A stretch of DNA of 64,000 bases, from the NCBI RefSeq assembly GCF_027474825.1, contig NZ_CP107030.1:1-64000 (forward strand). Direction: 5' to 3'. The translations under genes were made by a program, and so were the position numbers. This stretch comes from Maribacter halichondriae. GTDB taxonomy: Bacteria; Bacteroidota; Bacteroidia; Flavobacteriales; Flavobacteriaceae. The notes under the pieces were generated by a model that ran no database searches, was not told where the DNA came from, and worked only from the letters and a program-made list of their open reading frames with translations. Within the stretch, counting starts at the first letter, position 1. Every line of letters begins with the position of its first letter. Positions 10,921-63,723 of the stretch are shown one piece after another.

Positions 10921-10988
10921 CACACTATTAAATCAACCTCTGACGAAAATCGTGAACGTTGCTTTACGTACAATGTTAAAACAAGACC

Positions 10989-11339
10989 ATGGATTCATTG
11001 ATAAATTTCGTTGAAAACGAATTTGTTCCGAAAAAAGATTTTCCAAAATTCTCATCAGGAGATACCATTACGGTATACTATGAGATTAAGGAAGGTGAAA
11101 AAACACGTACCCAGTTTTTCAAAGGAGTCGTGATTCAGCGAAGAGGAACCGGTGCGACCGAAACTTTTACCATCCGTAAGATGTCGGGTACAGTGGGCGT
11201 AGAACGTATCTTCCCTGTAAATATGCCGGCCTTGCAGAAAGTTGAAGTAAACAAAAAAGGTAAGGTGCGTCGAGCGCGTATCTTCTATTTCAGAGGCCTT
11301 ACCGGTAAAAAAGCGAGAATTAAAGAAGTTCGTTCTTAG
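10989..11339 (+). CDS. rplS: 50S ribosomal protein L19
   Basis: L19 sits at the 30S-50S interface. The 116-residue protein has the standard length, with the conserved FSSGDTITVYYEIKEGEK, RTQFFKGVVIQRRG and the C-terminal ARIFYFRGLTGKKARIKE. It has its own well-matched promoter and a strong terminator, so it can be transcribed independently of trmD. Confidence 0.98.
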   Translation: MDSLINFVENEFVPKKDFPKFSSGDTITVYYEIKEGEKTRTQFFKGVVIQRRGTGATETFTIRKMSGTVGVERIFPVNMPALQKVEVNKKGKVRRARIFYFRGLTGKKARIKEVRS

Positions 11340-11361
11340 ATTTCGCAACGTATATTCTTAC

Positions 11362-11402
11362 ACTGCCTTCTATCTGATTTATCGATAGAAGGCTTTTTTA
11401 TG
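11362..11402 (+). terminator. Rho-independent terminator after rplS
   Basis: The stem CCTTCTATC / GATAGAAGG with a TGATTTATC-type loop is followed by a T-rich tail, about 25 bases after the rplS stop. Confidence 0.9.
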
Positions 11403-11761
11403 AACAATTGTTAAAAAGTGAGGTTCATAGTATGTTGATTATTAATATGTTAAATATTTTGGTCTTCCCGAAATATTATCCTACATTGAGGTATGATTTA
11501 AAATAACTATCGGAGGATATAAGTTTTAAGTCATTATAAAGGTTACGTTCTTTATATTATTGTTCAGCTTTTTAAAATTTTGAGTCGTGACGTAAGTTGC
11601 TTCCAGTTTTTTAATAGGCGAGTATGGAATCAAAGGGCTGTCGCCTTTTGTGTTGTCCATATGGATGTTCTTCACCAAACATAGGACTTCGGTTCGATAT
11701 TGGATTGAATAACATTAAGACAATGAGAAGAAATACGGAGAGTTGCTTGGTTTAATAATTA
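11403..11761. other. AT-rich non-coding gap upstream of a candidate RNA
   Basis: About 360 bases between the rplS terminator and the structured segment at 11762. No credible reading frame, tRNA or repeat was seen. It may hold the promoter of the RNA, but no TTG-N19/21-TAnnTTTG pair is positioned convincingly. Confidence 0.5.
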
Positions 11762-11903
11762 AGAACAATAATGTATTTCAAACGTTGAACAAGCGACGCA
11801 AATGCAATCAATGGTTGCCGTTTTGCCGCAAGGTAGAACAACAAGTTTGTAAGCTGTTCTAAAAAGCCATATCAATGTACTTGTACAATGATATGGCTTT
11901 TGT
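11762..11903 (+). ncRNA. Candidate structured small RNA with terminator (possibly 6S-like)
   Basis: Non-coding DNA folds into one long interrupted hairpin. AGAACA (11762-11767) pairs with TGTTCT (11855-11860); after an asymmetric AT-rich internal loop, CAAAC-GTTG pairs with CAAC-aa-GTTTG; further in, GCAAA pairs with TTTGC and GCAA with TTGC. A strong hairpin with T-rich tail follows at 11864-11903. A long hairpin with a large internal bubble and its own terminator is the 6S RNA architecture, and a flavobacterial 6S-like family (6S-Flavo) is known. I see the fold and inferred the family; an icd 5' regulatory element is an alternative. Confidence 0.45.
11864..11903 (+). terminator. Strong hairpin terminator upstream of icd
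   Basis: AAAAGCCATATCA / TGATATGGCTTTT is an almost perfect stem with an inner GTAC/GTAC pair, followed by TGTTTTG. It lies 113 bases before icd with no coding gene directly in front, implying a transcript ends here. Confidence 0.8.
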
Positions 11904-11980
11904 TTTGTAACATGTTTTCAAAACCCAAAAAACCTTCTGATATTGGGGAAATTCCTGTCTTTTGAGCGATGATAAAATTG

Positions 11981-11988
11981 TATATTTG
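11981..11988 (+). promoter_or_regulatory. -7 promoter element of icd
   Basis: TATATTTG matches TAnnTTTG and lies 28 bases before the icd ATG. A TTTG stands upstream but with only about 16 bases of spacing, short for this promoter class. Confidence 0.45.
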
Positions 11989-12016
11989 CTCCGCTTAAAA
12001 CAAAAGACAACCATAG

Positions 12017-14236
<2,220 letters not shown>

Positions 14237-55207: not shown

Positions 55208-55295
55208 TTCGTTTAATTTAATAAACGGGAGAATAGTATGTCTGTACACATACGTAAACTTTTATCCCGAAAGTTTAACATGATTTGTTTGAATT

Positions 55296-55586
55296 GGCAG
55301 GTCTCCTGACTTGCGTACTACCATCGACCTTCCCGCCTGTCCTGAACTTGTTTCAGAATCTGCCGAATTAGGCCTAAACCCTAAATCGACAGATGCCAAA
55401 ATAAATTTGGCACAAGCAGTGGTATTCGAAGAAAATGGTAACCATCCGCCAGCTGGCGGACTTAGCTTACAGTTGCGGGAACAGTTCCAGAATTTTTGAC
55501 CTACCTGGTACGATTTTAGAATTCTTCTTCGTTAATCGTACCTCGTACTTCAAATCACTGGATTCCCTTTTAATCCCATCACCAAT
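55296..55586 (-). promoter_or_regulatory. Cobalamin riboswitch with repeat-derived arms
   Basis: Read on the minus strand from 55586: GGTG then TTAAAAGGGAATCCAGTGA; CTGTTCCCGCAACTGTAAG (55492-55468); GGTTACC-like and CCACTG; GCGGGAAGG; and the B12 box GCAAGTCAGGAGACCTGCC ending at 55296. These are the conserved cobalamin-riboswitch blocks in the right order. The element ends about 90 bases before the receptor start. Variable arms contain two GTACGAG heptamers, a CCGCCAGCTGGCGG palindrome and a CCTGAACTTGTTTCAG repeat. Confidence 0.93.
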
Positions 55587-55687
55587 AAAATGATGCGAAC
55601 CAAATACGCGACCAAAGTAAACATTTTGTTTAATCTTTCGAGCCAAAGTTTAAATAATACTACTTTTGGAATCTTAAACGAACAGTC

Positions 55688-56831
55688 TTGAATAGAATTC
55701 CACTACTTATATCGCTCTTTTTATTTTTCGGCTGTAAGCAAGAAAAAAAGAGGTACTGCCTTTGGAAAATCTAAGTCCGGCAACCACTATTTTTCATGCA
55801 AAAGGGTTTACCGTAGAAAATTCGAATACGGGATTGACCATCATCAAGATTAACTCTCCGTGGCCCAATGCTGAATCCGGATTCACCTATGCCTTGATTC
55901 CAAAGGGTAAAATGGCCGCCATGACCTTGAACAAAAACGAATATGATGCCATTGTTACCGTACCTGTCGAGCGACTCGTGGTTACCTCGACTACACATAT
56001 TGCGGCACTTGAAGCATTGGGAATGTTGGATAGATTGGTAGGGTTCCCTGACACGGAATATATTTCCTCCAAAGAAGCTAGAGAGCGAATCGATCAGGGA
56101 AACATAAAGGAACTCGGCAATAACGAGGCCATCAATACCGAAATGGTCATCGAGCTGAACCCGGATGTAGTTGTCGGATTCGGAATCGATAATCAGAACA
56201 GTGCTTACGAAACCATACAACGCTCCAATATTCCGGTGGTCTATAATGGCGATTGGACCGAAGAAACACCTCTGGGAAAAGCGGAATGGATCAAGTTTTT
56301 CGCTCCCTTCTTTCAAATGGAAAAAAAGCCGATTCCATTTTTAGTGAAATTGAAAAAAACTATAAAGAAATCAAATCCTTGGCAAAAAAAGCTTCCCATC
56401 GACCCACAGTTTTGAGCGGGGCGCTATACAAAGATGTTTGGTACCTTCCTGGAGGAAAGAGCTGGGCCGCTACTTTTTTAGAAGACTCAAACGCCCAATA
56501 TCTCTGGGAGGATACCGAAGTGACGGGAAGTCTCTCCTTAAGTATTGAAAATATACTTGAAAAAGGCAAAACTGCCGAATATTGGGTTTCTCCATCACAA
56601 TATACATCATATAAAGAGTTGGAAGAGGCCAACCAACACTACCTTCAATTCGATGCATTTCAGAAAAAAAAGATGTACACTTTTGCAAAAACTATGGGAG
56701 ACACGGGTGGGTTACTTTACTATGAACTTGCTCCACAGCGACCCGACCTGGTCCTAGAAGATCTTGTCTATATTTTTCATCCCGAACTGCTACCTGACCA
56801 CGAACCTTTCTTTTTCAAACCCCTCGATTGA
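55688..56831 (+). pseudogene. ABC transporter substrate-binding lipoprotein (BtuF-like), two frameshifts
   Basis: A periplasmic binding protein of the FepB/BtuF type. From TTG 55688 a lipoprotein signal is read (MNRIPLLISLFLFFGC, C16); the frame breaks at A7 55743-55749 and again at A7 56321-56327. Adding one A at each gives a continuous protein of about 382 aa: ERLVVTSTTHIAALEALGMLDRLVG, INTEMVIELNPDVVVGFG, QMEKKADSIFSEIEKNY and PTVLSGALYKDVWYLPGG. It precedes a FecCD permease by zero bases of gap. Riboswitch context across the divergent gap suggests corrinoid uptake. Confidence 0.85.
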
Positions 56832-63538: not shown

Positions 63539-63677
63539 TGCGTACCGTAATATGTTAGCCTTAAATGTATCGAAAAGAAAAAGCAATACCAACGACTTTA
63601 TATTAACTTGAACTAGGGTCTCGATATTTTCATTTATTTTTGATTGCCTCACCCGGAATTGCCCAAAAGTAATTCCG

Positions 63678-63696
63678 ACCTCTCCCAAGGAGAGGT
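63678..63696. repeat. ACCTCTCC...GGAGAGGT palindrome
   Basis: A perfect eight-base-arm inverted repeat with a CAA spacer, 28 bases before gnd, in the zwf-gnd divergent gap. It may be an operator or another intergenic repeat; no copy elsewhere in the window was found. Confidence 0.55.
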
Positions 63697-63723
63697 GAAA
63701 AATTAAAAAAAAGGTAGATAATT

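Follow-up and report, generated by a model that had tools for sequence, protein, structure and literature searches.

A structured RNA gene between rplS and icd in the Flavobacteriaceae

The gap between rplS and icd in Maribacter halichondriae almost certainly, judged from sequence, holds a structured RNA gene. It is probably an independent non-coding RNA gene, with its own promoter and terminator, whose product would act in trans, in a structural or a regulatory role. The window analysed is 64,000 nucleotides long (contig NZ_CP107030.1, positions 1 to 64,000). In it an earlier note had marked positions 11762-11903 as a 6S-like RNA with its own terminator beside rplS and icd. The structured RNA, its terminator and its neighbours all stand. 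The 6S identity falls: the genome's single match to the 6S-Flavo family lies elsewhere, and the gap has none. The marked interval also proves to be only the last third of a unit about three times longer, from about 11494 to 11906. The 677-base gap was given correctly: the rplS stop ends at 11339 and the icd ATG begins at 12017.

Support for an independent gene comes from a conserved single locus, covariation, a body that folds more strongly on the + strand, the lack of a reading frame, the spacing of its own promoter, and exceptions that tie it to neither neighbour. As proposed, a dedicated promoter and a conserved upstream element (block A) would drive transcription of an RNA whose length is about 410 nt in the short type and about 500 nt in the long type. 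It would fold into a 5' hairpin and a multibranch domain closed by a long-range helix, then an internal hairpin domain and a 3' junction, with the terminator last (Table 1), and it would most likely act in trans, structurally or as a regulator.

Table 1. Features of the rplS-icd locus, in window positions
Feature	Position	Strand	Basis
rplS (ribosomal protein L19), upstream neighbour	10989..11339	+	PF01245, 144.7 bits
rplS terminator hairpin and T-run, directly before block A	11365..11399	+	sequence
Block A, upstream conserved DNA element	11398..11445	+	consensus of 75 sequences
Putative promoter: -33-like TTTTGG 11457-11462; -7-like TACATTGA 11482-11489	11457..11489	+	spacing, consensus
Large structured RNA, about 413 nt, predicted start	about 11494..11906	+	alignments, folds
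5' hairpin, conserved ACGTT loop	11535..11556	+	alignment; helix 1 of A2
Long-range helix 11557-11564/11719-11726, closing the multibranch domain	11557..11726	+	A2 helix 3
Internal hairpin domain 11730-11736/11773-11779	11730..11779	+	A2 helix 4
3' three-way junction	11787..11860	+	A2 helices 5-8
Possible long-range pairing, loop ACGTT 11545-11549 with AACGT 11781-11785	11545..11785	+	RNAalifold
Terminator hairpin AAAAGCCATATCA...TGATATGGCTTTT and TTTTGTTTT tail	11862..11906	+	fold, z -7.21
icd's own -7 element TATATTTG, 3' of the RNA terminator	11981..11988	+	sequence; consensus in the consulted part of PMC6847099
icd, monomeric isocitrate dehydrogenase, downstream neighbour	12017..14236	+	PF03971, 1300.5 bits

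Sixty genomes, this one included, were searched by blastn with the 511 bases of 11400-11910. Nineteen match, all within one family (f1); in all 19 rplS precedes and icd follows the RNA in one orientation, with another gene between RNA and icd in three (G031, G015, G030). The DNA 3' of rplS was then read in 39 further genomes (G037 and G057 were left out). The RNA or a diverged copy is present in nine of the 18 family members without a blastn match: five found by motif (G008, G010, G021, G023, G011), three by eye (G009, G014, G033), and one through block A (G027). Presence in these last four was judged by eye, and absences elsewhere rest mostly on motif searches. Carriers therefore number at least 27 among the 36 family relatives of the 60-genome sample. 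A motif search did not find the RNA downstream of rplS in 21 genomes of other families. The rplS gene itself is present in all 60.

A scan for the RNA's terminator pattern, covering about 85,000 species by one genome apiece, returned at least 117 stretches, 80 of them listed. Among the 80 matches listed, 72 have rplS and/or icd adjoining (52 both, 10 rplS only, 10 icd only). The remaining eight have neither gene: one is a Flavobacteriaceae record at a contig end, and seven are records outside the family, taken as chance matches. Carrier genera among the matches listed include Zobellia, Maribacter, Arenibacter, Cellulophaga, Winogradskyella, Algibacter, Polaribacter, Tenacibaculum, Kordia, Aquimarina, Aequorivita, and Gelidibacter. 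Two contigs labelled as Chlorobiota and Rokubacteria MAGs (L083, L117) have rplS, the terminator of the RNA, and icd arranged as in Flavobacteriaceae; they are probably mis-binned. The pattern has no match in viral contigs, and a phage or mobile RNA was rejected on that result.

Breadth within the family was gauged with R1, a covariance model of the 3' domain built from 31 long-type sequences. R1 matches 178 of 299 Flavobacteriaceae genomes and 147 of 236 genera, counts that may include a few false matches since its E-values are rough. It also misses diverged copies (G014 and G027 have no match) and gives short-type RNAs only some 50 bits. An order-wide draw gave 25 matches in 395 genomes, all Flavobacteriaceae; a phylum-wide draw gave 12 in 395, eleven of them Flavobacteriaceae and one (G871) outside. 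The weak matches in G871 (2.9e-5) and G419 (2.5e-4) are plain terminators with neither rplS nor isocitrate dehydrogenase (IDH) beside them, whereas matches of like strength in G156, G540, G105, and G253 lie between rplS and icd. The draws from order and phylum thus suggest that the RNA is restricted to Flavobacteriaceae.

One genus, with many genomes in the draws, stands apart. In g147, presumably Flavobacterium, 12 of the 13 genomes have icd 248-316 nt past rplS, and searches of those 12 gave no block A and no terminator of the RNA; the thirteenth (G1019) has no icd 3' of rplS. The RNA is thus an optional insert at a stable locus.

Block A follows directly on the rplS terminator; at that position relatives have hairpins whose stem sequences differ, as read by eye. 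Its consensus, TTATgAACAAttGTTAATAAct...GTTtATAA..tGTTgATat.tAA, comes from the 75 sequences, among 91, in which its start was detected. (The 91 count one contig twice, as L071 and L005, and may include other duplicates.) Spacing to the promoter is nearly fixed. A single -7-like box occurs 60-140 nt past the block A start in 67 of the 75 sequences, and in 64 of these 67 it lies at 83-85 nt; seven others have more than one box, in each case including one at 83 or 84 nt, and one has none. The count takes all -7-like boxes in that interval, without preselecting the box nearest 84 nt. Block A is a probable activator or UP-type site.

In the part of PMC6847099 consulted, the promoter consensus is TTTG/TANNTTTG, the -7 box occupying -12 to -5 relative to the start. 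From the position of its -7 box, the RNA would start near 11494 and would be transcribed from its own promoter. The M. halichondriae box is imperfect, matching the consensus at four of six key positions, and this counts against an independent gene; the icd element TATATTTG is a perfect match. A strict block A palindrome was found in six of 21 genomes searched, with at most two sites each, and was not found in this one. Too few genomes and sites thus have it for block A to be a widespread regulon element, and that idea was dropped. The 250 nt before the 6S, RNase P RNA, and tmRNA genes contain no half-site, a weak control because the window's own block A has only one strict half-site.

The RNA occurs in two size types that share a core and differ in their arms. 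The short type (about 410 nt) includes the window RNA and its nearest relatives; the long type (about 500 nt) is that of Winogradskyella, Algibacter, and others. Seventeen of the 91 sequences fell in neither size group. Alignment A1 comprises 33 long-type RNAs, and A3 is 31 of its rows (L115 and L134 excluded). A2 comprises 20 short-type RNAs, this one included, picked from the 41 sequences of the "short" group for likeness to the window's type; L075 and L080 align poorly in its interior.

Covariation supports extensive secondary structure in both types. The A1 consensus has 88 pairs with 95.8% of cells paired, and 48 pairs show changes on both sides; its covariation score is 0.386, against 0.070-0.099 for slid controls (40-47% of cells paired) and 0.208 for shuffles. 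A2 has 67 pairs with 95.4% of cells paired, 27 with changes on both sides, and a score of 0.264 against 0.073-0.094 for slid controls (41-51% paired). None of 500 shuffles of either alignment reaches any of five measures. The double-change counts are the stronger evidence, because the structures were derived from the same alignments, which favours the percentage paired.

Support is uneven among the parts. Both-side changes affect five of the eight pairs of the long-range helix in A2 (95.0% of cells paired), one of nine pairs of its long-type form (A1 helix 1), five of seven in the internal hairpin domain, and one of seven in the 5' hairpin. The arms of the multibranch domain are supported by an alignment of the eight nearest short-type sequences and by the RNA's own fold, and are also present in the long type; the 20 short-type RNAs of A2 yield no consensus pair in the domain's interior, a point against the independent gene. 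The 3' three-way junction has stems 11787-11794/11853-11859 and 11798-11803/11845-11850 and hairpins 11804-11818 and 11821-11838, with compensatory changes among relatives. The contact between the ACGTT loop and AACGT is weakly supported: 95.0% of A2 cells are paired, zero pairs have both-side changes, and by eye the long type shows no equivalent. The 5' hairpin loop (11543-11549) also holds, in most rows, a palindrome that would permit loop-loop dimers. Within the first 40 nt, AACGTT occurs in 29 of 33 A1 rows, and ACGT in 17 of 20 A2 rows, two of which have AACGTT.

The strong terminator that had been claimed is well borne out. The stable hairpin at 11862-11901 (-20.4 kcal/mol, z -7.21) is followed by TTTTGTTTT. 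A simple terminator scan of 11330-12030 listed no terminator, probably because the innermost loop is too short for the scan. That the stem is nearly invariant in A1 and A2 is owed in part to its use as the search pattern; genomes chosen through rplS, and not through that pattern, have the stem changed on both sides. By eye, the changes are compensatory in G009, G033, G014, and G027, the stem in G009 and G033 being GCCATTTCA / TGAAATGGC.

Single-sequence folding gives a more modest picture. None of 200 shuffles folds as well as the interval 11762-11903 (142 nt; z -5.32), and most of that signal is due to the terminator hairpin. With the terminator excluded, 11762-11860 reaches only z -1.82, and eight of 200 shuffles fold as well. 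In place of the interrupted hairpin of about 100 bases with a large AT-rich bubble that the earlier note had seen, this part forms a three-way junction (11786-11860, z -2.92). The whole of 11400-11905 gives z -6.19. The body alone (11497-11860, without the terminator) gives -3.59 to -3.73 on the + strand and -0.91 to -1.06 on the - strand. This strand difference holds for the body only: scored over its first 400 nt, with the rplS terminator among them, the gap is nearly as strong on one strand as on the other (-4.22 on +, -3.76 on -).

Eight gaps of at least 250 nt in the window were compared by the first 400 nt of each (+ strand). Only the rplS-icd gap and that of a cobalamin riboswitch (-6.94) fall below -4; the six others range from +0.68 to -2.96, three of them at -2.6 to -3.0. 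These three, set beside the modest body value of -3.59, count against an independent gene. The riboswitch (55279-55619, - strand, 76.7 bits) lies in the gap 55250-55752, which has the strongest fold signal of the eight.

A small protein gene was ruled out, by the lack of a conserved reading frame and by gap lengths. An ATG reading frame of at least 20 codons is shared at the same codon position by at most 12 of 33 rows in A1 and four of 20 in A2, and internal alignment gaps are mostly not multiples of three. With frames ignored, at most 61% of A1 rows (near column 148) and 35% of A2 rows lie within such a frame at any one column; the A1 peak is a point on the other side.

IDH lies within 1 kb downstream of the RNA in 63 of the 69 loci with enough sequence. 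This argues for a long leader or attenuator of icd, with the 3' hairpin as a regulated terminator, and it counts against an independent gene. So does G027, in which a diverged RNA, in two copies by eye, precedes a dimeric IDH (PF00180) that is non-homologous to the window's monomeric enzyme (PF03971). Such a leader is nonetheless improbable. No IDH occurs within the 1.7-6.4 kb read at the other six loci (L099, L104, L113, L124, L125, L137). In L104 and L132 the first reading frame past the terminator encodes another protein, with no IDH in the stretch read. A leader would always stand upstream of an icd that has no separate promoter; in the window icd has its own -7 box 3' of the RNA terminator. 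Moreover, rplS and IDH adjoin without the RNA in G005, G006, and G022 and in 12 of the 13 g147 genomes, while L080 and L119 have the RNA and icd behind an upstream protein other than rplS. These exceptions to both neighbours, with the separate promoters, favour an independent, trans-acting gene, and action in trans is likely. A shared helical core with varying peripheral arms likewise suggests an RNP or self-assembling scaffold over an icd leader. Alternatively, the RNA could be a trans-acting base-pairing sRNA, with conserved loops and linkers, instead of a scaffold, pairing with mRNAs. Several of its loops and linkers are highly conserved (GTCAATACATTTTGAAAG in the long type is one), and the family offers a precedent in Rfp18 of Flavobacterium psychrophilum, a reported regulator of this sort (PMC9723704, part consulted). 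That alternative is possible, if doubtful: much of the conserved sequence sits within helices, and the independent transcripts in the consulted part of the same source have a median length of 176 bp, far below that of this RNA. It is very unlikely that block A and its surroundings form the replication origin, with block A resembling a cluster of DnaA boxes. Block A does contain TTATNAAC-type repeats, dnaA is about 10 kb away (C1:25-1416), and a third parS-like site, with one mismatch, stands at 4.12 Mb, far from the other two. The genome's own skew also has exceptions: of 25 samples, those near 0.04 and 1.06 Mb are slightly positive and that at 3.22 Mb is negative. Against this, strand-corrected GC3 skew, mostly negative up to about 1.86 Mb, is mostly positive beyond it, and the turn coincides with two perfect parS-like palindromes at 1.88 Mb. 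In G016 the skew turns cleanly between 0.84 and 1.02 Mb, with the RNA at 10 kb. On the parS-like sites and the skew of these two genomes, an origin at block A was ruled out; counts of DnaA boxes did not locate the origin. Skew places it at about 1.86 Mb on C1 of this genome (G000), far from dnaA, and at about 0.93 Mb in G016, far from the RNA.

6S RNA is a rod with a large central single-stranded bubble; it binds RNA polymerase and templates pRNA. The RNA described here is intergenic and structured and ends in its own terminator, as a 6S RNA would, and yet it is almost certainly not one. The genome has a single, clear match to 6S-Flavo (RF01685), outside the window at C1:3623464-3623573 (102.4 bits, cut-off 85). 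In the covariance-model check proposed in the earlier note, no 6S-Flavo match appeared in 11340-12030 at E-values up to 5, and none of the six sub-threshold Rfam matches there is to 6S, the top ones being the L10 leader (20.8 bits, cut-off 44) and StyR-143 (20.5 bits, cut-off 176). Nor do the consensus folds form a bubbled rod: they have a domain-closing long-range helix and a three-way 3' junction. An RNA already described under another name outside Rfam, such as an Rfp transcript or a published motif, is also unlikely, although less remote. The consulted part of PMC9723704 reports 85 newly described RNAs, four of them structured and conserved in other species. On the other side, Rfam 15 at gathering score has no match to the RNA in 13 relatives, g147 (presumably Flavobacterium) lacks it at the locus in the 13 genomes read, and no literature was found that joins rplS or icd, Flavobacteria, and an RNA. 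A scan of the window at gathering score likewise matched no Rfam family in the rplS-icd gap; the structured RNA gene is thus outside every Rfam family tested. The literature search, which extended neither to supplementary tables nor to the 2017 list of 224 motifs, found no description of an RNA at this locus. The RNA is absent from the consulted parts of PMC2864571, PMC9723704, PMC5613140, PMC5069720, and PMC12286853, and the main text of PMC9723704, as far as consulted, names neither rplS nor icd.

Returning to an independent, probably trans-acting gene, the lasting neighbourhood hints at a functional link between the RNA and IDH. The neighbourhood of rplS and IDH is itself probably older than the RNA, since a dimeric IDH follows rplS without the RNA in G006, G022, and, in another family, G038; the IDH was apparently displaced in place. 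This apparent displacement beside rplS, PF00180 versus PF03971, varies by lineage (L255, which is G027; L195, L204, L211). At L255, two tandem block A copies and the diverged RNA lie between rplS and IDH, with terminators that differ by eye. More tentatively, and on balance improbably, the RNA may be an unnamed ornate RNA, core to much of the family: a scaffold that assembles itself or organises proteins and that has a link to central carbon metabolism. Self-assembly is suggested by the near-palindromic AACGTT or ACGT loop of the 5' hairpin, and the metabolic link by the lasting place before IDH, even with a non-homologous isozyme.

Marine Flavobacteriaceae are major polysaccharide degraders, and to our knowledge few of the family's regulatory RNAs have been characterised. 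This one has dozens of covarying pairs, is absent from Rfam 15, and was detected in over half of the family genomes sampled. Its fixed address (rplS, RNA, icd) makes it a ready target, with named carrier isolates in Zobellia, Maribacter, Cellulophaga, Polaribacter, Tenacibaculum, and Winogradskyella. The genus g147, which keeps both neighbours and lacks the RNA, provides a natural control.

Other RNAs were called nearby or elsewhere. The L19-Flavobacteria ribosomal leader (RF03130) is found at 10934-10961 (+), before rplS. In three of 13 relatives scanned, a Flavo-1 RNA (RF01705) lies just 5' of that leader (L010:298-387, L066:3351-3419, L259:339-421); the Rfam scan at gathering score made no Flavo-1 call in the window. 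A Whalefall-1 match at 63645-63698 (-) scores 37.5 bits, just above the cut-off of 37. RNase P RNA and tmRNA were rejected as occupants of the gap, as both lie elsewhere (C1:412948-413262 and C1:3193158-3193557).

Comparison with known RNAs places the rplS-icd RNA among large structured ones. The L19 leader has the same rplS locus, but it is a 28-base leader on the other side of the gene. The "icd" motif in the 2010 list of 104 candidates also takes its name from an icd gene; as described in the consulted part of PMC2864571, it is listed for Pseudomonas as a possible cis-regulator, and the comparison is by description only. 6S-Flavo is likewise an intergenic structured RNA of Bacteroidota, and its 108 model positions approach the size of the interval first marked; the rplS-icd RNA is about four times as long, is multi-domain, and has no match to the model. 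Rfp18, reported in the consulted part of PMC9723704 as a trans-acting base-pairing regulator, resembles it as a structured, conserved sRNA in Flavobacteriaceae; compared by description only, the two differ in that g147, presumably the same genus, gave no copy of the rplS-icd RNA when the gap between the two genes was searched. RNase P RNA and tmRNA share its size class of 300-400 nt. OLE, GOLLD, and ROOL are large bacterial or phage RNAs with extensive covarying structure and poorly understood function (PMC12286853, part consulted). Many GOLLD members exceed 800 nt according to that part, so the rplS-icd RNA is smaller. It differs from all three in having no Rfam match at gathering score (window and 13 relatives), none to these families in its gap up to E = 5, and no match to its pattern in viral contigs. 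Like them, it is large and has extensive covarying structure.
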